DNA of 64,000 nt, taken from NCBI RefSeq assembly GCF_003351045.1, contig NZ_QQZY01000003.1:186001-250000 (forward strand), given 5' to 3'. The position numbers and the translations under genes were made by a program. Position 1 is the stretch's first letter; each line of letters starts with the position of its first letter. Shown here one piece after another: positions 49,743-64,000 of this stretch. The stretch is from Gaiella occulta. Its GTDB lineage: Bacteria > Actinomycetota > Thermoleophilia > Gaiellales > Gaiellaceae. The notes beneath the pieces are model-generated. The model worked only from the letters and a program-made list of their open reading frames with translations. It searched no databases and was not told where the DNA came from.

Positions 49743-51581
49743 TCAAGCGCCGGTGTCGTCCTCGAGGATCTCGACCGTGCCCGCGGCGCCGTCGACACGA
49801 AGGCGTTGACCCGTACGGATTCGCTTCGTGCCGAACCCGGTGCCGACGACGGCGGGAAGCCCGTACTCGCGCGACACGATCGCGGCGTGCGCCATGATCC
49901 CGCCGATGTCCGACACGGCCGCCTTGATGCGGCTGAAGACCGGCGCCCAGCTCGGCGCCGTGATCGGGCAGACGAGGATCTCCCCGTCCTCGACGTCCTC
50001 GAGCTCGGCCGCGGAGAAGATCACGCGTGCCGGCCCCTCGGCCACGCCGGGTGCGGCGCCGATGCCCTGCAGGACGCCGGAGTCGTCGCCGCCCGCGTTG
50101 CGCCAGCGGTCGACCGTCTCCTCGGTGATGCCCCACAGCATCACGGTGAACGGCTCCGTGATCGAGTCAGGCACCTTGCCGAGAGCGGGAGGCGGCGACC
50201 AGCGGCGCAGCGCCTCCATGATCCGCTTGCGGTCGGCCACCTCGCGCTGCCAGTACGCGCGCCGGTCGGGGGTCTCGGTCGCCCAGCCGGTGATCAGGTC
50301 GGCGAGCGCCGGGTGGACCTCGTGCCGCTGCAGCAGGAAGACGTCCTCCTTGTCGTCGAGGAAGCCGTGGGCGGCGAAGACCGCCCCGAGCTCCCGCACC
50401 TTGTTCCAGAACAGCGAGTAGTGCTGGTGCTCCGCGTAGAAGTTGTGGTTTTCGACGAACGGGTAGACGGTGCGGGCGAGCGCGACGAGGCCGTCGAAGG
50501 CGGCACGATCGTCGTCGCTGCCGAGGAGCGCCCGGTACTCCGAGGTGATGCGGTCGCGCTCGGCCTGCACGCCCTCGAGCGGCCGGTCGATCTCGTCGCC
50601 GCGAACGAGCTTCTCGACGTACGTCTTCAGCGCGCCGAACGGCGTCCGCAGGTCGTCGATCCACGCCCTGTCCCCGTGCGTGAGCCCGGCGCCGGTGGAG
50701 AACCAGAACCACGGCTCCTTCGCCGTCTCCAGCGCGGCGATCCACTCGTCTCCCCTCGGCGCCTGCGCGACGGCGGAGAGCACAGCCTCCGGTGTGTCGC
50801 CGCGAGCGAGCTGGTCGACGAGACCGAGCTCGACACCGAGCCGCGCCAGCTTCCGGAGTTCGTCGTCCGGCCGGAACATGAGGATGTCGATCCCCGCGAC
50901 CATCTTGGCGACGTTCTGGTCGCTGATGCCCGGGAACGCGCGCTGGCAGAGCTCACGGAACGTCATGTAGGCGCCGTAGCCGAGGCCGAGCATCTCGAAG
51001 TGCAGGTACGCCATCTCCTGCACGTTCTCGAGCAGCTCGTTGTAGGAGCGCGCGAGGTGGAAGCCGCTCGTCAGCTCGCGCGCCTGCGTCACGACCTCGT
51101 CCGGCTCGACGTCGGGCAGCGGCTCGAACGTGATGCGCGTCAGTCGCTGCCGGCAGTCGTTTGCCTTGGCCACCCAGTTCTCGTAGATCTCGTCCCAGTT
51201 CTCGAAGTAGTGGCCGGCGCGGGGGTTGAAGTACGCGGCGCGACGAGCGATCTCGTCGGGGTCGGTGATCATCGTGGGGCTGACGTAGACGTAGCCGTTC
51301 ACGACCCGGTGGTCGAGCCCGAGCGCCGTCGGCACGACGAACACCTTGGTGGTGTTCTGGTTGAGGATCAGCCAGGTGTTCTCCGGCATCAGCAGGTCGA
51401 AGGGGTACATCGGCTCGGGGTAGTGCATCGAGTCGTGGAACCAGAACTTCTCGTCCTCGAACGCGCGGCGATCCTCGCTGAAGCAGGCGTAGTACGGGTA
51501 GAGGCGCTGCCAGCCCTCCGCGCCTTCGGGCGTCTCCACCTCGAAGGGGCTCTGGAAGTTCGCCGGTGCGCGGTCGCTCAT
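49743..51581 (-). CDS. PEP-utilising (phosphohistidine) domain protein, phenylphosphate synthase PpsA-like, copy 1
   Basis: A 612-residue soluble protein. The long N-terminal part (1 to about 480) is shared with the 610-residue protein at 59121-60953 along its whole length (for example HRVVNGYVYVSP, FRELCQRAFPGI and GIDILMFRPDDE). The C-terminal 90 residues are a PEP-utilising mobile domain with His565 in GGIMAHAAIVSREYGLPAVV, the phospho-carrier His of dikinases. The size and layout match the 70-kDa subunit of phenylphosphate synthase, which passes phosphate from the ATP-grasp subunit to a phenolic hydroxyl. GGAGGAG precedes the ATG, which overlaps the deformylase stop. It is the last gene of the operon. 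Confidence 0.85.
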   Translation of the reverse strand: MSDRAPANFQSPFEVETPEGAEGWQRLYPYYACFSEDRRAFEDEKFWFHDSMHYPEPMYPFDLLMPENTWLILNQNTTKVFVVPTALGLDHRVVNGYVYVSPTMITDPDEIARRAAYFNPRAGHYFENWDEIYENWVAKANDCRQRLTRITFEPLPDVEPDEVVTQARELTSGFHLARSYNELLENVQEMAYLHFEMLGLGYGAYMTFRELCQRAFPGISDQNVAKMVAGIDILMFRPDDELRKLARLGVELGLVDQLARGDTPEAVLSAVAQAPRGDEWIAALETAKEPWFWFSTGAGLTHGDRAWIDDLRTPFGALKTYVEKLVRGDEIDRPLEGVQAERDRITSEYRALLGSDDDRAAFDGLVALARTVYPFVENHNFYAEHQHYSLFWNKVRELGAVFAAHGFLDDKEDVFLLQRHEVHPALADLITGWATETPDRRAYWQREVADRKRIMEALRRWSPPPALGKVPDSITEPFTVMLWGITEETVDRWRNAGGDDSGVLQGIGAAPGVAEGPARVIFSAAELEDVEDGEILVCPITAPSWAPVFSRIKAAVSDIGGIMAHAAIVSREYGLPAVVGTGFGTKRIRTGQRLRVDGAAGTVEILEDDTGA

Positions 51582-52459
51582 CGTGCTCCTCCATCGGTTT
51601 CGGGCAACGGGTCGGCCCCGCCGGGCGCGCCCCGGCCGTGCAGGGTGCGGGCGAGGAACGGTCGGACGATCGCGAGGAAGCCGGCCAGGTCGTCCCAGGG
51701 CAGCATGTGGCCGGCGCCGGGCAGGACGGCGACCTCGGCCGCCGGGTTGGCCGCCGCGACCTCCGCCGCGCCGGTCTCGCCGACGACGGGGCCGGCGCCG
51801 CCCCAGACGAACAGGGTGGGAGAGTGCAGGCGCACCCAGTCCTCGAAGAAGTCCTCCTCGTGGAAGAGGCGGTGGGTCTCGACCACCGCCGTCTCGTCGC
51901 AGGTGCCGAGCCAGGCGGCGCGGAGCTCGAGCTGCTCCTGCGTCCAGGTCGGGAAGAACGGTCGCATGTCGTCGGCGCTGGCGCCGGCCCGGGCGAGGCG
52001 GAGCGACTCGACGAACGCCTCCACCGGGGTCGGGTACGGCGCGCGCCCGGGCCCGCTCAGCGGCGGGTCCGCCACGACCAGCGGGCCTCGCAGCGCCGGG
52101 TAGAGCGCGCCGAACGCGGCGGCGATGCGGGCGCCGGCGGAGTGGCCGAGAACCGCCGGCCGGTCGAGCTCGAGCGCCGCGAGCGCCTCCGCGACGTCGC
52201 GCGCGAGCTCTTCCCGCGCGTAGCTTCGTCCCCGCTCCGAGAGACCGCGCCCGCGCACGTCCATGGTGAGGACGCGGAACTCGGAGGCGAGCTCGAGAGC
52301 CACGAACTCCCAGGTCACCGCGGGGCTGGTGATTCCCGGAAGGATCACGAGGGCGGGCAGGTGCGCCGCGCCGTACTCGAGGAAGTGCAGGCGGAGGCCG
52401 TTCGCCTCCACCGTGCGGCTGCGTCCGACCGGTTGCGTCGGGGGCGCGTGCGTGCTCAC
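51578..52459 (-). CDS. nicD: N-formylmaleamate deformylase (NicD-like alpha/beta hydrolase)
   Basis: A 293-residue alpha/beta hydrolase. Ser107 is in VLGHSAGARIA, and His251 is in GAGHMLPWDDL. LVILPGITSPAVTWEFV, MDVRGRGLS, DPPLSGPGRAPYP and DDMRPFFPTWTQEQLELRAAWL agree closely, from memory, with Pseudomonas NicD. That enzyme hydrolyses N-formylmaleamate to maleamate and formate in nicotinate breakdown. Its place in an operon with NicX-, NicE- and NicF-like proteins supports the same reaction. It overlaps both neighbours by 4 bases. Confidence 0.9.
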   Translation of the reverse strand: MSTHAPPTQPVGRSRTVEANGLRLHFLEYGAAHLPALVILPGITSPAVTWEFVALELASEFRVLTMDVRGRGLSERGRSYAREELARDVAEALAALELDRPAVLGHSAGARIAAAFGALYPALRGPLVVADPPLSGPGRAPYPTPVEAFVESLRLARAGASADDMRPFFPTWTQEQLELRAAWLGTCDETAVVETHRLFHEEDFFEDWVRLHSPTLFVWGGAGPVVGETGAAEVAAANPAAEVAVLPGAGHMLPWDDLAGFLAIVRPFLARTLHGRGAPGGADPLPETDGGAR

Positions 52460-53085: not shown

Positions 53086-53530
53086 CGCGCACCTCGCGCT
53101 CGAGCGCCTCCGCGAACTGCTTCGCGGCCTGCGCCGCCTGCCGCGCGACCACCTTCCCGCCGACGACCCCGAGCATGCCGCCGAGCGCGACGTCGGCCTC
53201 CAGGACGACCCGCGTCGCCCCTGCGCCGTCGTCCTCGAGCCGGACGACGTTCGTCACCCGCACGTTGCCGGCCGCGCCGCGGACGCTCCGGCCGGTGGCC
53301 GAGAAGCTGATCGACTGGCCGGGCTCGACGCCTGTAATGCGCATCTTCGCGTCGAAGGTCGCGTTCATCGGCCCGAGCGACTGGGTGATGCGCAGGTTCG
53401 AGCTGCCGTCCTCGAGCATCGTCACCTGCTCGACGCCGGGGAGGCAGCGCGCCACCCGCTCGACCACCCCGACCACCTCCCAGACGGCCTCGCGCGGCTC
53501 GGCGACCACGAACGACTCGGACACCTTCAC
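53078..53530 (-). CDS. SRPBCC/CoxG family subunit of the molybdenum hydroxylase
   Basis: A 150-residue protein of the CoxG branch. It begins VKVSESFVVAEPREAVWEVV, then has VARCLPGVEQVTMLED, GPMNATFDAKMRI, and the C-terminal helix GGMLGVVGGKVVARQAAQAAKQFAEALE. CoxG-type proteins bind or help mature molybdenum hydroxylases. In several pyridine-type hydroxylases this domain is fused to another subunit; here it is a separate gene. The GTG overlaps the large-subunit stop by 4 bases. Confidence 0.86.
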   Translation of the reverse strand: MKVSESFVVAEPREAVWEVVGVVERVARCLPGVEQVTMLEDGSSNLRITQSLGPMNATFDAKMRITGVEPGQSISFSATGRSVRGAAGNVRVTNVVRLEDDGAGATRVVLEADVALGGMLGVVGGKVVARQAAQAAKQFAEALEREVRGA

Positions 53531-55911
53531 GGCGTGCCTCCCTTCCGCCCGGTTGCTTGCCGGAGTGCGCGCCAGACGAGCTCGGGCGTGATCGGCAGCC
53601 GGCCGATCTCGACGCCGAAGTCGGCGAGCGCGTCGCAGATGGCGTTGGCGAGCGCGGCCCCGGGCGGGATCGTGCCGATCTCGCCGACGCCGCGGACACC
53701 GAAGGGCGTCACGGGTGAGGGCACCTCGGTGTGATACAGCTCGACCTCCGGCAGGTCCGCGGCCGTCGGCGCGAAGTAGTCGAGCATCGAGCCGTTCAGG
53801 AGCTGACCTGTGTCGGGGTCGTAGCGGATCTCTTCCATCAGCGCGGCGCCGAAGCCCTGTGCGAGGGCGCCCAGCACCTGCCCTTCGACGAGCATCGGGT
53901 TGACGGCGGTGCCGCAGTCGTGCACGACCACGAAGTGCTCGATGTCGAAGTCGCCGGTGGCGGCGTCGACGGCGACCACGGCGGCGGCGCTGCCGTACGC
54001 GTATGCGGCCGCCTCGGGCTCGTAGTGGACGGTCGCGTCCAGGCCCGGCGCCTCGTCCGCAGGCAGCCCCTGTCCGATGATCGCCGTCTCGAAGACGCGA
54101 GCGAGCGGGAGCCTGATCGCGTGGTCGCCGACGACGCGAACCTCGCGCCCGGCGATCTCGAGGTCGTCGGCATCGACCTCGAGCAGCGACGCCGCGATCC
54201 GCAGCGTCTTCGCGGCAAGCTCGAGGCTTGCCCGCTCGATCGCGCCCGCGGCCGCGATCATCGTGCGTGAGGCGAACGAGCCGGTGTTGACCGGCGAGGC
54301 GGCGGTGTCGCCGACGTGGACCGAGACGGCGTCCACGTCGATGCCGAGCGCCTGGGAGCACACCTGGGCGAACGCGGTCTCCGGGCTCTGGCCGAACGAG
54401 GGCACGCCCGTGTAGAGGTCGACGCCACCGGAGCGGTTGGCCCGCAGCGTCACGCTCTCGTGGACGCCGAAGCGCGAGCCGCGGTCCGCGAGGAACTTCG
54501 CGCTCGCGTAGCCCGTCCGCTCGACGAACGAGGTAAGCCCGACGCCGACGTGGCGTCCGTCGGCGCGGGGGCCGCGTCCCGCGGCGCGCAGCCCCTCGTA
54601 GTCGACCGCGTCGGCGGCCATCCGCAGGCAGCGCCCGTAGTCGCCGCTGTCGTAGACGGCGCCGGCGGGGTTCTGCCACGGCAGCTCGTGGGGCTGGAGC
54701 ATGTTCTGGAGGCGCAGGTCGAGCGGATCGCGACCGAGACGGCGGGCGAGGCGGTCGACCAGCACCTCGCGCACGAAGTTGGACTCCGGCTGGCCGTAGC
54801 CGCGGTAGGCGCCGATCGGGGTCTTGCTCGTCAGCGTGACGCGGCGCTCCATGTGCGCGTCGCGGACGCGGTAGGGGCCGGGGAAGGTGATCGTCGTCAG
54901 CTGGGCGGAGCCGAACGGCGAGTTGAGCGCGCCGAGGTCGGTGGCGTAGACGTCGGTGAGCGCGAGGATGGTGCCGTCGTGGCTCGCGCCGAGGCGGGCG
55001 TCGTGCACCGACTCGCGGCCGTGCGTGGAGGCGCGGAAGTGCTCCGTCCGGTCCTCCACCCACTTGACCGGCCGGCGCGTGTCCTTGGCGTGGAGGCACG
55101 CGAGCACGTCCTCGGGGTAGATGCCGAGCTTCAGCCCGAAGCCGCCGCCGACATCGCCGACGACGACGCGGATCGCGCCCTCGTCGAGGCCGAGCGCCTC
55201 GCCGAGCTGCACGCGCACGAGGTGCGGCACCTGGGTCGAGTGGTGGACAAGCAGCTCGCGGCCGCCGGAGCGCCACTCTGCCACGACGGCGCGCGTCTCC
55301 ATCGGCAGCGCGGTGACGCGGTTGATCCAGAATCGGTCAGAGACGACGACGTCGGCGCGCGCGAGCATGCTCTCGGGATCGCCGGCGCCCTGCGAGTTGA
55401 CCGTGAGCAGGTTGGTCGGGAGCACGTCTGGATAGAGCACGGGGCCGTTCTCCATCGCGGCGACCACGTCGGGCACGTGCGGGAGCGGGTCGTAGTCGAT
55501 CGCGATCCGTTCGATCGCGTCCTCGGCGACGTAGCGGTCGACCGCGACGACGCTGACGACGGGCTGTCCCTCGTAGATCGCGATATCGGTGGCCATCGCG
55601 TAGTTGGGGAGATCGGGCGCCCCGGGCACGGGGCGCAGCACCGAGATCGGGTTCGTTCGCTCGACGACCTCGCGGCCGACGATCACCTGCTCGACGCCGT
55701 CGAGCGCGAGCGCCTCCGAGACGTCGACCGACAGCACGCGCGCCCGCGGGAACGGGCAGCGGCCGACCGCCATGTGGAGCGCGTGGGCCGGCTCGACGTC
55801 GTCGCTGAAGCGTCCGTCGCCGCGCAGTAGGCGGTCGTCCTCGCGCCGCGGCACGCGGTCGCCGACACCCCCCGCGCGCACGGCGCGCTCGGAGTCGAGG
55901 ACGCTAGCCAC
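53527..55911 (-). CDS. Molybdenum hydroxylase large subunit (xanthine dehydrogenase family)
   Basis: A 794-residue subunit. It has the small a/b hammerhead domain (about 25-145) and two molybdopterin-cytosine-dinucleotide-binding halves. VVGDVGGGFGLKLGIYPED, KTPIGAYRGYGQPESNFV and the C-terminal GVRGVGEIGTIPP with catalytic Glu744 are the family motifs. The active-site loop is AYRG rather than the AYRCSFR of CO dehydrogenase, so this is a hydroxylase of N-heteroaromatics, not a CO enzyme. With its Fe-S and FAD partners and the SRPBCC subunit it probably inserts water-derived oxygen next to the ring nitrogen. Confidence 0.93.
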   Translation of the reverse strand: MASVLDSERAVRAGGVGDRVPRREDDRLLRGDGRFSDDVEPAHALHMAVGRCPFPRARVLSVDVSEALALDGVEQVIVGREVVERTNPISVLRPVPGAPDLPNYAMATDIAIYEGQPVVSVVAVDRYVAEDAIERIAIDYDPLPHVPDVVAAMENGPVLYPDVLPTNLLTVNSQGAGDPESMLARADVVVSDRFWINRVTALPMETRAVVAEWRSGGRELLVHHSTQVPHLVRVQLGEALGLDEGAIRVVVGDVGGGFGLKLGIYPEDVLACLHAKDTRRPVKWVEDRTEHFRASTHGRESVHDARLGASHDGTILALTDVYATDLGALNSPFGSAQLTTITFPGPYRVRDAHMERRVTLTSKTPIGAYRGYGQPESNFVREVLVDRLARRLGRDPLDLRLQNMLQPHELPWQNPAGAVYDSGDYGRCLRMAADAVDYEGLRAAGRGPRADGRHVGVGLTSFVERTGYASAKFLADRGSRFGVHESVTLRANRSGGVDLYTGVPSFGQSPETAFAQVCSQALGIDVDAVSVHVGDTAASPVNTGSFASRTMIAAAGAIERASLELAAKTLRIAASLLEVDADDLEIAGREVRVVGDHAIRLPLARVFETAIIGQGLPADEAPGLDATVHYEPEAAAYAYGSAAAVVAVDAATGDFDIEHFVVVHDCGTAVNPMLVEGQVLGALAQGFGAALMEEIRYDPDTGQLLNGSMLDYFAPTAADLPEVELYHTEVPSPVTPFGVRGVGEIGTIPPGAALANAICDALADFGVEIGRLPITPELVWRALRQATGRKGGTP

Positions 55912-56401
55912 GACCCTCGCCCCGCCTTGCCTGCAGGTGCCGCTCGACGGCGGTCACGATCGGCTCGTAGCCGGTGCACCGGCACAGCACGCCGGCGAGC
56001 TCGCCGCGGATCTCGTCGCGCGTCGGCACGGACCCGCGACGGGCCAGCGCGGTCGCGGTCATCAGGAACCCCGGCGTGCAGAAGCCGCACTGCAGCGCGT
56101 GCTCGTCCTTGAACGCCTGCTGCAGCGGCGAGAGCTCGTCGGGGCCCGCGAGGGACTCGACCGTCGTCAGCTCCATCCCGTCGGCCTGGGCCGCGAACAG
56201 CAGGCACGACTTCACCGCGTCGTCGCCGACGAGCACGGTGCAGTTGCCGCACACGCCCTGCTCACAGCCGATGTGCGTGCCGGTCAGACCGAGCTCGCGG
56301 CGCAGGAAGTCGGCGAGGTGGAGGCGCGGCTCGACCGACCGGCGATAGAGTCGTCCGTTCACCGTCACGGCGACCTCGACCCGCTCGGGTGCGTCAGCCA
56401 C
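55904..56401 (-). CDS. Molybdenum hydroxylase [2Fe-2S] subunit
   Basis: A 165-residue protein with two iron-sulfur domains. The plant-type cluster uses Cys46, Cys51, Cys54 and Cys66 (IGCEQGVCGNC and KSC). The helical cluster uses Cys105, Cys108, Cys140 and Cys142 (QCGFC and LCRCTGYEPIV). It relays electrons from the molybdenum site to FAD. It overlaps the FAD-subunit stop and the large-subunit start by 8 bases each. Confidence 0.95.
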   Translation of the reverse strand: MADAPERVEVAVTVNGRLYRRSVEPRLHLADFLRRELGLTGTHIGCEQGVCGNCTVLVGDDAVKSCLLFAAQADGMELTTVESLAGPDELSPLQQAFKDEHALQCGFCTPGFLMTATALARRGSVPTRDEIRGELAGVLCRCTGYEPIVTAVERHLQARRGEGRG

Positions 56402-57263
56402 GGAGCGCCGCCTCCTCGTCGCGCAGGCGCCTGAGGACGCGCTCGACGTGCACGCCGGCGAGGTGCCGCCGGTACTCCTCGGAGGCCCGCACGTCCGACG
56501 GGGGGTCGATCACCGCGAGACACGCTTGCACGGCTGCGTCGATCGAGCCGGCGTCGAGGGTGGTGCCTTCCAGGCGACGGACTGCCTCGGGCACGAGGAC
56601 AGGCCGGTCGTCGACGCCCGCGAGGGCGAGGCGGAGCTCCTGCCACGCGCCGTCGGCGCCCCGCGTGCCGGTCACCGCGACCGCGAGCACGGCGAAGTCG
56701 TTGTGACGCCGCGACACCTCGAAGAACCCGTAGGCGGCCGGCGCCTCGGGGAAGCGGACCGCCACGATCAGCTCGTCGGGTTCGAGCGTGGTCGTGTAGG
56801 GTCCGAGCAGGAAGTCGTCGAGCGGGATCTCGCGCACGCCCTCCCGGCTCTGCGCGCATACGACGGCGCCGAGCGCGAGGCACACGAGCGGCATCTCGCC
56901 GACGGGGTCGGCCTGCGCGAGGCTGCCGCCGAGGGTGCCCCGGTTGCGGACCTGGCGGTCGCCGACGAAGCGGACGGCGTGCTGCAGCAACGGCAGCCGC
57001 TCGGCGACGAGGGGCGAGGACTCGAGTTCGGAGTAGCGCGTGAGCGCTCCCACCGTCAGCCCGTCGCCGTCGACGACGATCCCGGCGAGCCCGGCGACGC
57101 GGTTGAGGTCGACGAGCGCCGCCGGCTGCATCAGTCGCATGTGCAGCATCGGCACGAGGCTCTGGCCGCCGGCGAGCGGCCGGGCGCCGGCGTTCTCGGC
57201 CAGGGCCGTGATGGCGCTCTCGACGCTGTCGGGCCGGATGTACGTGAACGGCGCCGGCTTCAC
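56394..57263 (-). CDS. Molybdenum hydroxylase FAD-binding subunit
   Basis: A 289-residue subunit of the CoxM/XdhB type. FAD motifs are ARPLAGGQSLVPMLHMRL and VRNRGTLGGSLAQADPVGEMP. A CO-dehydrogenase-flavoprotein C-terminal domain follows. It passes electrons to the terminal acceptor. The GTG overlaps the ATP-grasp gene stop by 4 bases. Confidence 0.94.
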   Translation of the reverse strand: MKPAPFTYIRPDSVESAITALAENAGARPLAGGQSLVPMLHMRLMQPAALVDLNRVAGLAGIVVDGDGLTVGALTRYSELESSPLVAERLPLLQHAVRFVGDRQVRNRGTLGGSLAQADPVGEMPLVCLALGAVVCAQSREGVREIPLDDFLLGPYTTTLEPDELIVAVRFPEAPAAYGFFEVSRRHNDFAVLAVAVTGTRGADGAWQELRLALAGVDDRPVLVPEAVRRLEGTTLDAGSIDAAVQACLAVIDPPSDVRASEEYRRHLAGVHVERVLRRLRDEEAALRG

Positions 57264-58351
57264 GAGCCGCCGTCGTCCTTCGGCGCGAGGCGTCCGCCGC
57301 TGACGAACGTGCTCAGCACGAGGTCGACGGCGCTGCCCGCACCCGCGGAGACGGTCGGGACCGGCCGGCGGCTCCAGACGGTCTCGGGGCGCACCTGCAG
57401 CACGTGCACCGCGCCGGCCTCGTCGACTGCCCACTCGATGTCCTGCGGGGCGCCGCGATGGGCCTCGATCCGTTTCGCGAGCGCGGCGAGCGCCTCCACC
57501 TGCGCCTCCTCGAGGCACGGCTCGAGGCGCCGATCGTCGGGCACCTGGCGCAACTGCACGCCGGTGCCCGGCTCGAAACGGTACTCGGACGCCTTCTCCA
57601 CGATCGCCCGGTCGACGACGTCGAGCGTGACCTTGTCGAGCCGGAACCGGTCGGGCGTGACCTCACCGGCGACGACGGCCTCGCCGAGCCCCCAGCCTGC
57701 CTCGATCACGATCTTCGAGCGGTCACCCGTGACCGGGTCGAGCGTGAACATCACACCGGCGGCGCGGGGCTGCACGAGCTGCTGAACGACGACGGCCATG
57801 CCCACGTCGACGACGGTGCCGTTGCCGTCACCTGGCCGGTAGGTGAGCACCGCGGCGCCGAACAGGCCCGTCCAGCAGCGGCGGACGTGCTCGAGCACCG
57901 CGTCGACGCCGATGACCCACAGATAGGTCTCGTACTGCCCGGCGAAGCTCGCTCCGGCGAGATCCTCGGCGACGCCGCTCGAACGGACCGCGACCGGCAC
58001 GTCGGGGCTGCCGGCTCGCTCGCATAGACGCGCGTAGGCCTCCGCGACCGCGTCGGCGACGGCAGCCGGCAGGGGCGTCGACTCGATCGCCTCGCGCATC
58101 GTCGCGGCGGCGTCCTCGATCGCGAGCAGGTCGCCTCCGTGGGCGGCCGTGCGGGCGCTCCGGGCGAGCTCGCCGAGCCTGCCGTCGCCCATGAACGTGC
58201 GGTAGGCGTCGGTCGTGACGGCGAACGCGGGCGGCACGGCGAAACCGGCGGCCGCCATCTCGCCGAGGCTCGAGAACTTGCCCCCGACGAGCGCGCCCGA
58301 GTCGGTTCCGACCTCGTCGAGCCAGAGGACGAGCGTGTCGGCGGCGCTCAT
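57260..58351 (-). CDS. ATP-grasp dikinase subunit (PEP synthase/PPDK N-terminal domain, phenylphosphate synthase PpsB-like)
   Basis: A 363-residue stand-alone version of the ATP-binding domain of PEP synthase and pyruvate-phosphate dikinase. VGGKFSSLGEMAAAGFAVPPAFAVTT is at the start. PVAVRSSGVAEDLAGASFAGQYETYL and AGVMFTLDPVTGD lie in the ATP-binding region. EAGWGLGEAVVAGEVTPDRF and PQDIEWAVDEAGAVHVLQVRPET complete the grasp. It lacks the His and PEP domains; these are supplied by the two PpsA-like proteins in the same operon. The 363/612 split copies phenylphosphate synthase. Confidence 0.88.
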   Translation of the reverse strand: MSAADTLVLWLDEVGTDSGALVGGKFSSLGEMAAAGFAVPPAFAVTTDAYRTFMGDGRLGELARSARTAAHGGDLLAIEDAAATMREAIESTPLPAAVADAVAEAYARLCERAGSPDVPVAVRSSGVAEDLAGASFAGQYETYLWVIGVDAVLEHVRRCWTGLFGAAVLTYRPGDGNGTVVDVGMAVVVQQLVQPRAAGVMFTLDPVTGDRSKIVIEAGWGLGEAVVAGEVTPDRFRLDKVTLDVVDRAIVEKASEYRFEPGTGVQLRQVPDDRRLEPCLEEAQVEALAALAKRIEAHRGAPQDIEWAVDEAGAVHVLQVRPETVWSRRPVPTVSAGAGSAVDLVLSTFVSGGRLAPKDDGGS

Positions 58352-59124
58352 GGCGCACCGGTCGCGGCGACGTCCGCGGCGAGCATGCGGCCGCCGCCGG
58401 CGACCGTCGGCGACAGGCCGAGCGCGAGCAGGATCGACCGCGCCGTTGCCGTCGCGGCGGTCACGACCGGGATGCCGACCTCGCCCTCGACGAGCTCGAC
58501 CACCTCCAGGCTGGGCATCTGCACGCAGGCGGAGAGGACGAGCGCGTCGAGGTCGTCGCGGTCGCAGACGCGGCGTGCCTGCTCGACGAGGACGTGCGAC
58601 GGGATGCGCCCGACCTCGACGTTGTCCGAGACCTCGAGCGCCACGAGGTCGGCCACCTCGATCTCCTCGGCGCGGACGTAGTCGGCCACGAGCTCGGCGA
58701 GCGGCCGCATGTAGGGAGTGATCATTGCGACGCGCCGGGCGCCGATCGCCTGCAGACCGTCGATCAGGGCTCCCGCGCTGGTGACGACCGGCGGCTGACG
58801 GGGTGACTGCTCCAGCGCGCCCTCGAGTCGTGCCTGCACGTCACGGTGGGCGCCCGGCCCGCGGGCCATCACGGCCACGAGGCAGGCGTACGCGATCACC
58901 TCGACCGGGGCGTCGGCGAGCGACTGGGCGGCCACGTCGGAGGCCTGCACCATCCGGTCGAGCTCCTCGGCCGTGACGTGCGACAGGCGCGCCCGTGCGG
59001 AGTGCCAGGTGAACGATTCTCCCGTCGTCAGGCCGCGCCGCCGGAAGAGCTCGGGCAGCTCGGTCTCCATGGTCGTGTTCGAGCTCGGGACGATCAGTCC
59101 CACACGGCGTGCCTGGTCGCTCAC
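58348..59124 (-). CDS. nicE: Maleate cis-trans isomerase (NicE-like)
   Basis: A 258-residue Asp/Glu-racemase superfamily enzyme. It starts RVGLIVPSSNTTMETELPELF. The two catalytic Cys are Cys81 (IAYACLVAV) and Cys200 (LSACVQMPSL), placed as in characterised maleate isomerases. It converts maleate to fumarate, the exit of the maleamate pathway into the citric acid cycle. The close match to Pseudomonas NicE along its length is from memory. It overlaps both neighbours by 4 bases. Confidence 0.9.
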   Translation of the reverse strand: MSDQARRVGLIVPSSNTTMETELPELFRRRGLTTGESFTWHSARARLSHVTAEELDRMVQASDVAAQSLADAPVEVIAYACLVAVMARGPGAHRDVQARLEGALEQSPRQPPVVTSAGALIDGLQAIGARRVAMITPYMRPLAELVADYVRAEEIEVADLVALEVSDNVEVGRIPSHVLVEQARRVCDRDDLDALVLSACVQMPSLEVVELVEGEVGIPVVTAATATARSILLALGLSPTVAGGGRMLAADVAATGAP

Positions 59125-60953
59125 GGTGCCTCCTCGAGCAGCGTCACGACGCCGTCGTCGCCGTTGACCTCGATCAGTTGCCCCGTGCGGATCCGCTGTG
59201 TCGCGAAGCCGGTGCCGACAACGGCGGGCAGGCCGTACTCGCGGGAGACGATCGCGGTGTGCGCCATGATCCCGCCGATGTCCGAGACCGCGGCGGCGAT
59301 CGTGGAGAACACCGGCGCCCACGACGGCGCGGTGATGCGGCACACGAGGATCTCGCCGGGCTGGACGTCGTGCAGGCCGTCGCTCGTCGTGACCACGCGC
59401 GCGCGCCCGCGTGCGACGCCGCCGGAGGCGGCGACGCCGTTCAGGATCGCCGCGTCCTCCTCCTTGCCGCCGAGCCACTCGTCGACGACCTCCTGCGTGA
59501 TCCCCCACAGCATGATCGTGAGGGGCTCGGTGATCTCCTCGGGTGGGCGCCCGAGCGCGGGGGGCGGCGTCCACGCGCGCAGTCGCTCGTAGACGTCCCG
59601 GCGCCGCCGCACGACGTCCGGCCAGTACGAGGGCCCGCGCGCGTCGGTGCCCGTCGCCCAGCCGATGCAGAGGTCGTAGAGGGCGTCGTGCACCTCGGTG
59701 CGGCGGAGGAAGAAGATGTCCTCCTCGTCGGCGAAGAACCCGTGGGCGACGAACACGCGGCCGAGCTCGCGCACCTTCGACCAGAAGATCGAGTGGTGCC
59801 AGTGCTCGACGTAGAAGTTGTGGTTCTCGACATACGGGTAGACGGTGCGGGCGAGCTGGACGAGGCCGTCGAAGGTGGCTCGGTCGTCGTCGCCGAGCAG
59901 CGCCCGGTACTCGGCCGTGAGCCGCTCGCGCTCCTCCACGATCTGCTCGAGCGGCCGTTCGATCGTCTCGCCGTTGAGGAGGCGCTGCGCGTAGCCGCGC
60001 AGCGCGTTCAGAGGCAGGCGCAGGTCGTCGATCCACGCCCTGTCGGTGTGGGTGTAGCCGGCGCCTGTCGAATACCAGAACCACGGGTCCTTCGCTGCCT
60101 CGAGCGCCTCGAGCCACTCCCGTCCGCGCGGCAGCGAGCCCATTGCGGCGAGCAGCGCCGACGGATCACCCTGGGTGAGCACGGCCTCCGTGAGCCCGAG
60201 GTCGATGGCGAGGCGCGCGAGCTTGCGGACCTCGTCGTCGGGCCGAAACAGCAGGATGTCGATGCCGGCCACCATGCGCGCGACCGTGCGGTCGGCGATC
60301 CCGGGGAAGGCGCGCTGGCAGAACTCGCGGAACGTCAGGTAGGCGCCGTAGCCGAGGTTGAGCATCTCGAAGTGGTACGAGCCCATCTCGAACAGGCTCG
60401 CCAGCAGGTCGGCGTAGCGGCGCTGCAGGTGGTAGGTCGAGTAGACGCCGTGGTGCTCGCGGACGACACGCTCGTCCTCGAGCTCGGGCAGCGGCTCGAA
60501 GCTGATCGCCTGCAGCCGCTCGACGCAGTCGGTCGCCTTCTCGATCCAGGCGGCATAGATCTCGTCCCAGTGCTCGAAGTAGTAGCCGGCACGCCGGCTG
60601 AACACCTCGGCTCGCTGTGCGACCAGCTCGGGGTCGGTGATCGCGTTGGGGCTGATGTAGAGGTAACCGTTGACGACGCGGTGGTCGATGCCGAGCGACG
60701 GCGGGATCTGCCAGACGCGGGTCGTCAGCTGGTTGACGGCGACGGCCCAGTTCTCGGTCATGATCGCGTCGAACGGGTAGACCGGCTCAGGGTTGTGCAT
60801 CCCGTCGAAGAACCAGAACTTGCCCTCCTCGAAGTCGCGTCGCGCCTCGGAGAAGGTGTAGTAGTAGGGGTAGAGATCCTCCCAGCCGTCTGCACCCTCC
60901 GGCGAGGGGACCGAGAACGGGCTCGGGAACGTTCGGCCGGCGTCCTCGCTCAT
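59121..60953 (-). CDS. PEP-utilising (phosphohistidine) domain protein, phenylphosphate synthase PpsA-like, copy 2
   Basis: A 610-residue paralogue of the protein at 49743-51581. Both carry the phospho-carrier His at residue 565, here in GGIMAHTAIVSREYGLPAVV. They differ by scattered substitutions and small gaps, so they are old duplicates rather than recent copies. Copy 2 sits beside the ATP-grasp gene, and copy 1 is last in the operon. They may be two subunits of one complex or act on two hydroxylated intermediates. The ATG overlaps the dioxygenase stop by 4 bases. Confidence 0.85.
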   Translation of the reverse strand: MSEDAGRTFPSPFSVPSPEGADGWEDLYPYYYTFSEARRDFEEGKFWFFDGMHNPEPVYPFDAIMTENWAVAVNQLTTRVWQIPPSLGIDHRVVNGYLYISPNAITDPELVAQRAEVFSRRAGYYFEHWDEIYAAWIEKATDCVERLQAISFEPLPELEDERVVREHHGVYSTYHLQRRYADLLASLFEMGSYHFEMLNLGYGAYLTFREFCQRAFPGIADRTVARMVAGIDILLFRPDDEVRKLARLAIDLGLTEAVLTQGDPSALLAAMGSLPRGREWLEALEAAKDPWFWYSTGAGYTHTDRAWIDDLRLPLNALRGYAQRLLNGETIERPLEQIVEERERLTAEYRALLGDDDRATFDGLVQLARTVYPYVENHNFYVEHWHHSIFWSKVRELGRVFVAHGFFADEEDIFFLRRTEVHDALYDLCIGWATGTDARGPSYWPDVVRRRRDVYERLRAWTPPPALGRPPEEITEPLTIMLWGITQEVVDEWLGGKEEDAAILNGVAASGGVARGRARVVTTSDGLHDVQPGEILVCRITAPSWAPVFSTIAAAVSDIGGIMAHTAIVSREYGLPAVVGTGFATQRIRTGQLIEVNGDDGVVTLLEEAP

Positions 60954-62005
60954 GCCCGCGTCCCGGCGGCGGCCTTCATCTCGGCAACGACGACGTCTCC
61001 GTCGAGCACGATCGGCTCGTCGTCGAGGAAGAGGCTGCAGTTGCGCATCGGGACGTCGACGTGGCAGGCGGTGTCGTTCGTCCCGCCGAGCTCGCCGTTG
61101 GGCCCCGTCGAGAAGAGCACGTTGCCGTAGAACGAGCGAACCTCCATGCCCATGCCGCGGGTGTCGGTCGCCAGCGCCGACCAGCGTGCCCGGTGGTCGA
61201 GGCCCCAGCCGATGTGCGCGATGCCGTAGGCGCGCTCGTCGTCGAACGCGGCCATGTAGTCGCGCAGCAGGTCGGCGTCGACGGAGCCGCGGATGTCGAC
61301 GATGCGGCCCTGCTCGATCGTCAGCTCGATCGGTGACTGCACGTACGACTTGTGCGGCAGCAGGATGTCGCCGGGCGCGATCACGACCTTCCCGTCGACG
61401 CCGTCGTCGGCGCCGCCCGTGAACACGAAGCCGCTCGGCCAGTGATCCCACCGGCCCGCGGTGTCGGTGTGCCCGTACTGCGTCATCACCGGGTAGTGGC
61501 CGAGCTGGTAGGTGACGTCGGTGCCGGCCTCGTTGGTGAACCGCAGGGTCTTGGCCTGGCGCAGGAGCTGCTCGCCGGCCTCGACGCGCTCCCGGATCTC
61601 CTGTGTGGGGAACAGCCGCTGCAGCAGGTCGACCGGCTCGATGCAGAGCAGGACGCGCGTGCCCGCCGCCTGGATCTCCAGCTGCTCCTTCGAGAACAGC
61701 AGGAACATCAGGTCGATCAGCAGGTCAGCTTCCTTCAAGGCCTCGATCACGGGCCGGTTGCGGGCGAGCGGCGTCGCGCCGACGGTCCAGGCGCCGAACG
61801 AGCCGTCGAGGCTCGACGACACCTCCGGCAGGGTGACGAGGTACGACGTGGCGCCGAGCTTCTGGGCGGCGTCCATGAACGTCCGTGCATAGTCGACGCG
61901 CTGGTCGCCCTGGGCGAGGACGGCCACCGTCTCGCCCTCCTGGACGCCGCACATCTCGAGTGCCGCGCGGGTGAGGTCGACGAAGGACTGGGAGTAGCTG
62001 CTCAT
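60950..62005 (-). CDS. nicX: 2,5-dihydroxypyridine 5,6-dioxygenase (NicX-like)
   Basis: A 351-residue protein of the M29-peptidase-like fold. The iron ligands of NicX, two His and one Asp, are matched by His264 (IAHIGWGL), His315 and Asp317 (CHVDVPMRNC). GRWDHWPSGFVF, DILLPHKSY and YGNVLFSTGPNGELGG agree, from memory, with Pseudomonas NicX. It opens the ring of 2,5-dihydroxypyridine with O2 to give N-formylmaleamate. TAGGAGGG lies about 8 bases before the ATG. It follows the amidase gene by 12 bases. Confidence 0.92.
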   Translation of the reverse strand: MSSYSQSFVDLTRAALEMCGVQEGETVAVLAQGDQRVDYARTFMDAAQKLGATSYLVTLPEVSSSLDGSFGAWTVGATPLARNRPVIEALKEADLLIDLMFLLFSKEQLEIQAAGTRVLLCIEPVDLLQRLFPTQEIRERVEAGEQLLRQAKTLRFTNEAGTDVTYQLGHYPVMTQYGHTDTAGRWDHWPSGFVFTGGADDGVDGKVVIAPGDILLPHKSYVQSPIELTIEQGRIVDIRGSVDADLLRDYMAAFDDERAYGIAHIGWGLDHRARWSALATDTRGMGMEVRSFYGNVLFSTGPNGELGGTNDTACHVDVPMRNCSLFLDDEPIVLDGDVVVAEMKAAAGTRA

Positions 62006-62017
62006 CTGATGGCCCTC

Positions 62018-62734
62018 CTACGGGGTGGTCGTCCCGTCGGGACGTTGGCTACGGTCGTCGGGGGCTGCCGCACCCCATGGTGCCGAGAGGTACGCGACCG
62101 CATCGTCGAGCGCGATCACGTCGCCGTACTTGGCGTCGATGTCGAAGAGGTTCGCGTCGTGTGGTGCGCGGGCGCGGTCGCCGACCGCCTCGCGTACGAC
62201 GAGCGTCGGGAAGCCATGCTGGACGGAGTCGACGACGGAGGCGCGCACGCAGCCGCTCGTCGTTGCGCCGCAGATCACGACCGTGTCGACGCCGCGCCGG
62301 TGGAGGTCATCCGCGAGGTCGGTGCCGAAGAACGCGGAGGCGCCCTTCTTCGTCACCACCGGCTCGCCGTCGGCCGGCTCCAGTCGTGGGTCGACCTCGA
62401 CGAGCTCCGATCCGGCCGCCAGCACCGCGAGGCCCGGCGCCTTGCGCAGCCAGGCGAGCCGCTCCTCGTCGCCGGGGTCGTACGCGATCGTCGTGAAGAC
62501 GATCGGGCAGCCCCCGGCGCGCGCGGCGTCGACGAGGCTCTTCGCCGCCCCGACCTCGGACGTGAGATCGCTGCCGGTCGGGAACGCCGCCTCGGTGAAG
62601 CCGCGGCTGAGGTCGACGACGACGAGCGCGGGCCGCGGGCCGCGCTCGACCCTGGCGCCGAAGCCGGCCCGGGAATACACGCGGGCCGTCTCGTCACCCC
62701 GTTCGGCTGTCGTGTCGTCGAGGTTGTAAGTCAC
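62018..62734 (-). CDS. nicF: Isochorismatase-family amidase, probably maleamate amidohydrolase (NicF-like)
   Basis: A 238-residue cysteine amidohydrolase. The triad is Asp41 (LVVVDLSRGF), Lys129 (VTKKGASAF) and Cys162 (GATTSGCVRAS). The N-terminal GFGARVERGPRPAL is typical of the N-carbamoylsarcosine/maleamate amidase branch. It should release ammonia from maleamate to give maleate. It is the first gene of the operon. GTG 62734 is chosen because an upstream in-frame ATG (62773) falls inside the -35 box; the predicted transcript starts about 4 bases before the GTG, so it is nearly leaderless. Confidence 0.85.
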   Translation of the reverse strand: MTYNLDDTTAERGDETARVYSRAGFGARVERGPRPALVVVDLSRGFTEAAFPTGSDLTSEVGAAKSLVDAARAGGCPIVFTTIAYDPGDEERLAWLRKAPGLAVLAAGSELVEVDPRLEPADGEPVVTKKGASAFFGTDLADDLHRRGVDTVVICGATTSGCVRASVVDSVQHGFPTLVVREAVGDRARAPHDANLFDIDAKYGDVIALDDAVAYLSAPWGAAAPDDRSQRPDGTTTP

Positions 62735-62744
62735 TCTGCATTGT

Positions 62745-62773
62745 TGTATACACGCATCCAGTGGGGAGGTCAA
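62745..62773 (-). promoter_or_regulatory. Operon promoter with overlapping TGTATACA palindrome
   Basis: On the minus strand, TTGACC (62768-62773) and TATACA (62745-62750) are separated by 17 bases, the best vegetative promoter match I found in the window. The -10 box lies inside the perfect 8-base palindrome TGTATACA (62745-62752). This resembles the TTGTATACAA-type operators of FCD-domain GntR repressors. A bound repressor would cover the -10 box. No such regulator gene is in view; it may lie beyond the right edge. Confidence 0.65.
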
Positions 62774-62860: not shown

Positions 62861-62929
62861 GCCCAGTCACGAGAGACACGCCGCGAGCGGCCGCGGCACC
62901 CCTGACTCATGGGAGGAAGGACGAGGCCG

Positions 62930-64000
62930 ATGGCCACCTTTAAGGAGCAAGTCTCGCTCGATGTCTTCTATCTCGACCTGCTCTACGCGTTCGCCGCGAT
63001 GTGCGTCGTGCTCGTGGTGCTGGGCCTGTGCCTGGTCGACGGCGGGCTCGTGCGGGCGAAGAGCATGGTCGACACGTGGGTGCTGAAGATCGCAGCCGCC
63101 ATGGTGGGTGGGTTGACGACGATCTTCGTCGGCTACGCGATCTGGCAATGGTCGTTCAACACCGCCTTCGGCGTCCCGGGCCCGCTCGGGCAGGCGCTCA
63201 AGGACTGGTGGCTGTTCGGCAACAACATGACGGAGTTCGCGGGGAACCTCGACCCCAAGAAGGTCGTCGAGGCCGACGTGAACCAGGTGTTCGTCGTGTT
63301 CTTCATGACGTTCTCGATGGCGACCATGGCCCTGATCCACAGCGCCGTCGTCGAGCGCATCAAGGCGCTGCCGCTGCTCGTCACCGCCGCGATCGTCGGG
63401 ACGGTGCTGTCACCGCTCGCGGGCTACCTCGCCTGGGGACCGGTCAGCCCGCTCACGAACCGTGGCGTGCACGACTTCGACGGCGTCTTCCCGCTCTACA
63501 TCTTCGCCGGCACGGTGAGCCTCGTCTTCGCCTGGAGGGTCGGGCCGCGGCGGGGCGTCGGAGCAGGCGGGCAGCCGTCCGCCGTCGAGCGTCCGCCCGC
63601 GAACCTCGCCATGACGGGCGCCGGGATCCTGCTGATCATGTTCGCCCTGCCCTTCATCGCGCTCGGCTCGGGCTGGGTCTTCCCGGGCGGCGGCTACTTC
63701 GGCATCTCGATGACGACCAGCGGCATGGGCATCGTCATGATCAACGTCCTCACCGCGTTCCTCGCCGGCGGCCTCTCCGGCACGGTGATCGCCTACCGCG
63801 AGCGTCAGCCCGCCTGGGTCTTCCTCGGCCCGATCTCGGGAGCGATCCTCTGCGGTGCCCTGTTCGACGTCGCCAAGCCCTGGGTGATCCTGATCGTCGC
63901 CCTGTTCGGGCCCTTCGTGACCCTGCTCGGCCAGCGGGTGATGGTCGCGCTCGGGATCGACGACCCGAAGGTCGTCCCGCTCGCGCTGTTCAACGGCGTG
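62930..64000 (+). CDS. Divergent Amt/ammonium-transporter family protein, cut by the window edge
   Basis: The frame stays open for 357 codons to the window end. Multiple membrane helices and the landmarks DGGLVRAKSM (about 37-46), SAVVERIKALPLL, HDFDGVFPLYIFAG and LGIDDPKVVPLAL place it in the Amt family. The pore His pair of AmtB appears lost: Tyr190 occupies the place of His168 in the DFAGG-type motif, and Leu353 falls at the place of His318 in an ungapped reading after the DD pair. The Asp of the first motif (Asp182) is kept. GGGAGGAAGG lies 9 bases upstream. Transport of ammonium or of the pyridine substrate are both possible. Confidence 0.75.
   Translation, partial: MATFKEQVSLDVFYLDLLYAFAAMCVVLVVLGLCLVDGGLVRAKSMVDTWVLKIAAAMVGGLTTIFVGYAIWQWSFNTAFGVPGPLGQALKDWWLFGNNMTEFAGNLDPKKVVEADVNQVFVVFFMTFSMATMALIHSAVVERIKALPLLVTAAIVGTVLSPLAGYLAWGPVSPLTNRGVHDFDGVFPLYIFAGTVSLVFAWRVGPRRGVGAGGQPSAVERPPANLAMTGAGILLIMFALPFIALGSGWVFPGGGYFGISMTTSGMGIVMINVLTAFLAGGLSGTVIAYRERQPAWVFLGPISGAILCGALFDVAKPWVILIVALFGPFVTLLGQRVMVALGIDDPKVVPLALFNGV

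Follow-up and report, generated by a model that had tools for sequence, protein, structure and literature searches.

The gene amtL, which reaches the end of a 64,000-nucleotide stretch of a Gaiella occulta contig (the window, meaning the whole stretch of DNA analyzed), encodes an Amt-family protein in which both pore histidines are replaced, and it belongs to a clade of relatives that share this loss. We consider it moderately probable that the predicted product is an Amt-fold permease or wide channel for an organic nitrogen compound degraded by the neighboring enzymes, and not an ammonium transporter of the twin-His type. Entry of a substrate instead of ammonium is probable because both pore histidines are replaced and because the clade sits in gene clusters for pyridine-type compounds and methylated amines.

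The original prediction had called for the sequence past position 64000, and this shows that amtL is intact: a single open frame runs from the ATG at 62930 past the end of the window to a stop at C3:250312, with 312 bases beyond the window, and encodes a product of 460 amino acids. An alternative in-frame ATG upstream, at 62909, would give a product of 467 amino acids; with the start at 62930, the earlier numbering of Tyr190 is correct. The product matches the Pfam model Ammonium_transp (PF00909; E 2.2e-32, 112.7 bits against a cut-off of 23.2) over model positions 4-393 of 399, and it keeps D160 (AmtB numbering) and the C-terminal GLD motif. Judged by its sequence, it is a homologue of the Amt/Mep/Rh superfamily at fold level. 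With the curated ammonium-transporter model of NCBIfam (TIGR00836) it scored 131.2 bits and did not reach the cut-off of 343.3, which taken alone is little proof since the twin-His paralogue L002 of the same genome also stays under this cut-off with 219.7 bits. A hydropathy count gave 11 hydrophobic stretches, and an AlphaFold model built from a small alignment (L008, L009, L010 and the window part) had a pLDDT of 38 and a pTM of 0.26. A sequencing or frame error as the cause of the missing histidines was ruled out by the single open frame, the 11 hydrophobic stretches and a residue pattern common to 34 members of the clade.

The pore residues were located in three ways: MAFFT aligned the protein with Escherichia coli AmtB and the genome's other two Amts, L-INS-i aligned 46 proteins, and phmmer compared the protein with Archaeoglobus fulgidus Amt-1 (PDB 2b2f). 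All three place Tyr190 at AmtB H168, as had been predicted, and Ala352 at AmtB H318, where a single-residue gap follows the DDP motif. The second site had originally been given to Leu353; the absence of a histidine there is borne out, but the aligned residue is Ala352, one before Leu353, which takes this place only in a gapless count starting at the DD pair. No histidine falls at the place of H168 or H318 in any plausible alignment register, and the possibility that one was concealed by misalignment was rejected, as the two alignments and phmmer were concordant. In addition, AmtB F215 is replaced by Ile and W212 by Leu, and F107, W148, D160 and S219 are retained. Since these defining pore features fail, amtL is not classed as a twin-His ammonium transporter.

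Relatives of amtL were found by several searches. With the single protein as query, they came from an Actinomycetota MAG and two genomes of Planosporangium; with an eight-sequence profile, 23 of the 399 genomes sampled from the class and 15 of the 201 sampled from one order had a match; and tblastn on plasmids gave three full-length members in Paracoccus and Ponticoccus. The phylum-wide searches, with the single protein or with the profile, gave three genomes each, and the wider spread is drawn from the samples of the class and the order; coverage outside the Actinomycetota consisted of plasmids, and many of the sampled genomes were draft MAGs. Complete clade members scored at least 416 bits with the profile and other Amts at most 123 bits, leaving a clear gap. 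The resulting clade comprises 34 complete proteins from Actinomycetota and Rhodobacterales, and a maximum-likelihood tree separated it from the canonical Amts with a branch support of 100/100; the exact root is uncertain because long branches meet there. The identity of amtL as an ordinary AmtB, a grouping with AmtB beside glnK that the original prediction had set against its own reading, was rejected on the tree, the pore motif and the absent glnK linkage, the P-II gene of the genome being located on contig C1.

Neither pore histidine is present in any of the 34 clade members. The first site is Tyr throughout, and the second is Ala (15), Phe (10), Thr (5) or Gly (4), with Phe in one branch (the amine branch) and Ala, Gly or Thr in the other (the ring branch). 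Amine-branch proteins do carry a histidine 6-7 residues ahead of the second site, beside D310, which is not the pore position. The place of W212 is aliphatic (L/V/A/I) in all members, and that of F215 is V/L/I/A in 33 of 34, with F215 retained in the remaining one. At the outer recruitment site S1, D160 and W148 are retained in all 34 and place 107 is F, Y or W in 33; a lysine (Lys347 of amtL, where TM10 starts) occupies the place of AmtB D313 in every member. Throughout the clade, the histidines and the inner site have changed in one direction, with the outer aromatic/aspartate site retained. Among 31 control Amts from the phylum, which as the best-scoring ones of the draw lean toward the canonical type, H318 was present in 31, H168 in 30 (Glu in the remaining one), and F215, W212 and S219 were kept in all.

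The distance of amtL from the NCBIfam consensus (131 bits, with the cut-off at 343) and a relative, L073, whose gene occupies two reading frames would fit a relic heading for loss and retained by hitch-hiking with its cluster. We regard this explanation as highly improbable, since 36 alignment columns are invariant over the 34 sequences, including the clade-specific Tyr190, His181, Asn177 and Lys347, and decay would not give these. The split relative (L073:9038-10419, genome G701) is either a broken gene or an assembly error. Separately, the bacterial Amts L021 and L023 of two related genomes (G016 and G032) have Glu at the first pore-histidine site and keep the second histidine; Glu at the first site has been described as a fungal change (PMC7447429).

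The coordinates of amtL, its pore codons and the neighboring enzyme genes are given in Table 1.

Table 1. amtL, its pore codons and the adjoining catabolic genes in the window.
Feature	Position	Strand	Remark
amtL, Amt-family gene without twin-His (Tyr190/Ala352)	62930..64000 (window part)	+	ORF list, Pfam match, alignments
Tyr190 codon (TAC), place of AmtB H168	63497..63499	+	Counted from ATG 62930; three alignments
Ala352 codon (GCG), place of AmtB H318; Leu353 is the next codon	63983..63985	+	Counted from ATG 62930; three alignments
Isochorismatase-fold amidase, NicF-like (maleamate amidohydrolase, ammonium-releasing)	62018..62773	-	Divergent from amtL; start provisional
NicX-like 2,5-dihydroxypyridine dioxygenase, M29-like fold	60950..62005	-	
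PEP-utilising enzyme (mobile domain), copy 1	59124..61000	-	Start provisional
NicE-like maleate isomerase, arylmalonate decarboxylase fold	58369..59106	-	
Pyruvate phosphate dikinase ATP-binding domain protein (PPDK_N)	57260..58351	-	
FAD subunit, molybdenum hydroxylase	56394..57278	-	Start provisional
[2Fe-2S] subunit, molybdenum hydroxylase	55904..56401	-	
Molybdopterin subunit, molybdenum hydroxylase	53527..55911	-	
CoxG/SRPBCC protein, separate subunit	53189..53530	-	53% identity to the CoxG protein of locus L010
NicD-like alpha/beta hydrolase (N-formylmaleamate deformylase)	51650..52438	-	
PEP-utilising enzyme, copy 2	49760..51556	-	

Every part of a 3hpd-type cluster is present in the window between 49760 and 62773, namely a Mo-hydroxylase, a separate SRPBCC protein, PEP-utilising/PPDK proteins and NicX, NicD, NicE and NicF. 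The 3-hydroxypyridine (3hpd) cluster of Ensifer adhaerens HP1 is composed of this set, its substrate in the window being putative, and the NicX product is named after the pathway enzyme. The same parts occur among the Ensifer 3hpd and the Pseudomonas putida nic genes; in the window, by contrast, the divergent Amt-family protein is the only candidate transporter of the cluster. The gene pair formed with the NicF-like amidase agrees with the original prediction that amtL is divergent from an ammonium-releasing pathway, and the gene after amtL encodes an ordinary GntR/FCD regulator. The neighboring genes, from which the substrate is deduced, make 3-hydroxypyridine or a close hydroxypyridine the most likely candidate for the G. 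occulta protein.

The combination of the PPDK ATP-binding protein with the two PEP-utilising proteins recalls phenylphosphate synthase, and relatives of these proteins are plasmid-borne in Rhodococcus, Rhizobium, Thermomicrobium and haloarchaea, in part together with aromatic-oxygenase or carboxylase genes. Beyond the window, on the amtL strand, a 4-aminobutyrate-type transaminase gene is followed by a spermidine/putrescine-type ABC transporter (C3:251522-256719, equal to L005:5522-10719), probably a separate polyamine/GABA cluster.

In the survey of Amt-like genes beside pyridine clusters that had been proposed with the original prediction, 18 of the 24 ring-branch members adjoin NicX, Mo-hydroxylase or PEP-utilising genes in clusters of the hydroxypyridine type. 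The same enzyme set, a divergent amtL and a GntR/FCD regulator are found at loci L008, L009 and L010; clusters of the 3-hydroxypyridine type with a divergent amtL recur in Planosporangium, the Actinomycetota MAG and several relatives, and L027, L084 and L086 have a related cluster that combines NicX, Mo-hydroxylase, MoxR and CoxE. The most divergent member (L053, in L070:4369-12507) is accompanied by a luciferase-like monooxygenase, a flavin reductase, an alpha/beta hydrolase and an aldehyde-dehydrogenase-like ORF, a gene set that resembles a pyridine ring-opening pathway. In the amine branch, 6 of 10 members lie in trimethylamine (TMA), trimethylamine oxide (TMAO) or dimethylamine clusters, with Tmm, Tdm and DmmABC as neighbors on alphaproteobacterial plasmids and genes similar to Tdm as neighbors in the class to which G. 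occulta belongs. No recognisable catabolic neighbor accompanies the clade member at L013, L014, L047 and L058. Within the 399 genomes of the class, NicX above 500 bits was found in 10 of 14 ring-branch genomes and in 6 of 385 others (Fisher p 3e-13, a guide only, since the test takes genomes as independent, ignoring kinship, and treats two genome draws as one set), and in none of the 9 amine-branch genomes.

All of the linked pathways release ammonium; NicF frees it in the window, and in the amine clusters the N-methylglutamate route does so. The residues that recruit NH4+ at the outer site are retained. The protein could on this basis be a non-selective Amt-type pore for the release or recapture of the NH4+/NH3 set free by the pathway, the more so as AmtB H168A/H318A conducts hydrated NH4+ in a channel-like manner (PMC7447429). 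We nevertheless regard this as unlikely, and the altered ammonium channel offered as one option by the original prediction is the less favored. The genome encodes two ordinary twin-His Amts besides amtL, and one of them (C1:66628-67863) lies beside its sole P-II gene (C1:67929-68249), so that ammonium uptake is already covered. Canonical twin-His Amts likewise adjoin the clade member and fill the ammonium slot in the TMA clusters L028, L063, L073 and L074. Clusters that lack amtL have permeases for organic solutes nearby and not another Amt, and together with the twin-His Amts these replacements weaken the ammonium-valve reading. The difference between the branches at the second site (Phe against Ala, Gly or Thr) also fits the shape of a substrate better than a shared ammonium role.

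The transporter content of the clusters is informative for the preferred reading, a permease for the degraded compound. On L004, L008, L027, L071 and L072, amtL is the sole ORF with at least five hydrophobic stretches; on L009, L010, L081, L084 and L086 further such ORFs exist and are located outside the enzyme genes. Where a NicX cluster lacks amtL, permeases of the MFS, NCS1 (cytosine/purine-type) or branched-chain ABC kind lie nearby, not all of them demonstrably in the same operon; L159, a full 3-hydroxypyridine-type cluster without amtL, has the branched-chain ABC kind. One substrate importer thus seems to have been exchanged for another. Other transporter genes also occur near the TMA clusters of alphaproteobacteria, neutral pyridines and amines are able to pass membranes unaided, and some clade members have no catabolic neighbor that could be recognised; these points count against the permease reading.

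The original prediction had also considered a carrier for the uncharged pyridine substrate, the option that the evidence favors and extends to methylated amines. In such a permease, the substrate would be gathered at the outer aromatic site, where F107, W148 and D160 are kept, and the intact molecule would cross an inner pore that is wider, as far as its residues indicate, with Tyr190 as a possible hydrogen-bond partner or ligand at mid-pore and an exit past Lys347. Flux would be passive, with intracellular consumption as its driving force, and a twin-His proton relay of the AmtB style would not operate in the clade. We see a slightly better than even chance that this Amt branch gave up the twin-His ammonium mechanism and gave rise to permeases for larger organic nitrogen compounds, with sub-branches for hydroxypyridine-type rings and for tri- and dimethylamine.

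Two water wires are linked in AmtB by the twin-His motif, and without it the transporter is no longer selective but acts as a channel that passes hydrated NH4+ and, in single variants, K+ (PMC7447429, PMC9040831); in vivo, the double Ala variant lost the transport of both ammonium and methylamine (PMC3647058). As the outcome for AmtB with Ala at both His sites differs between assays, from passage of hydrated NH4+ to loss of transport (PMC7447429, PMC3647058), loss of the motif alone does not imply a new substrate.

In another reading, the protein is a transceptor that senses the substrate or ammonium and has a blocked pore, similar to the Amt sensor proteins. Tyr190 could plug the pore, and bulky side chains occlude that of Amt5 from K. 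stuttgartiensis (PMC10433425), but the inner residues of the clade are smaller, not bulkier, except for the change of His to Tyr and the Phe at the second site of the amine branch. The chain stops soon after the C-terminal GLD motif with no extra or signalling domain, the gene next to amtL encodes an ordinary regulator, and the association of the protein is with catabolic enzymes. The sensor that had been put forward as a further option finds no support here and appears very unlikely.

Compared with AmtB and A. fulgidus Amt-1 (PF00909, TIGR00836), amtL shares the family by sequence, the GLD motif, D160 and the aromatic residues of S1; it differs in both pore histidines and in F215 and W212, in the missing glnK and in its separate clade, which is tied to the catabolism of organic nitrogen compounds. 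An 'amt' gene has been reported inside the marine TMA/dimethylamine (DMA) clusters of Ruegeria pomeroyi and strain KarMa, with no comment found there on any loss of the pore histidines (PMC4744692, PMC5520151, PMC7574528). Like the clade members on the Paracoccus and Ponticoccus plasmids, these genes are Amt-family genes within tmm/tdm/dmm clusters; they are labelled as an unspecified ammonium transporter, and one Ponticoccus cluster has both kinds of Amt. A natural change of H168 is also known from fungal Mep proteins, whose first site is Glu, but they retain the second histidine and transport ammonium (PMC7447429), whereas in the amtL clade both sites are changed (Tyr; Ala, Phe, Thr or Gly).

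Williamson et al. (2020, eLife; PMC7447429) stated that natural sequences vary in the twin-His motif solely by Glu in place of the first His, in fungi, a statement that the clade of 34 sequences with both sites replaced contradicts. No description of a natural clade without both pore histidines was found in the literature searched, and the clade can be seen as a natural experiment on the role of the motif. If the preferred reading is true, no Amt lineage in nature before this clade would have combined the replacement of both pore histidines with substrates other than ammonium and methylammonium, and a number of database proteins annotated as 'ammonium transporter' would be wrongly named. Should the clade carry hydroxypyridines and tri- and dimethylamine, it would supply transporters for these pathways, including TMA use.

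A second kind of twin-His Amt, in which W212 is replaced by Phe, N216 by Tyr and S219 by Cys, was observed in the genome itself (L002, C1:510089-511315) and at L028:13527-15002 and L063:22858-24231. In some TMA clusters it adjoins the twin-His-less gene, and it may be an Amt tuned to methylamine.
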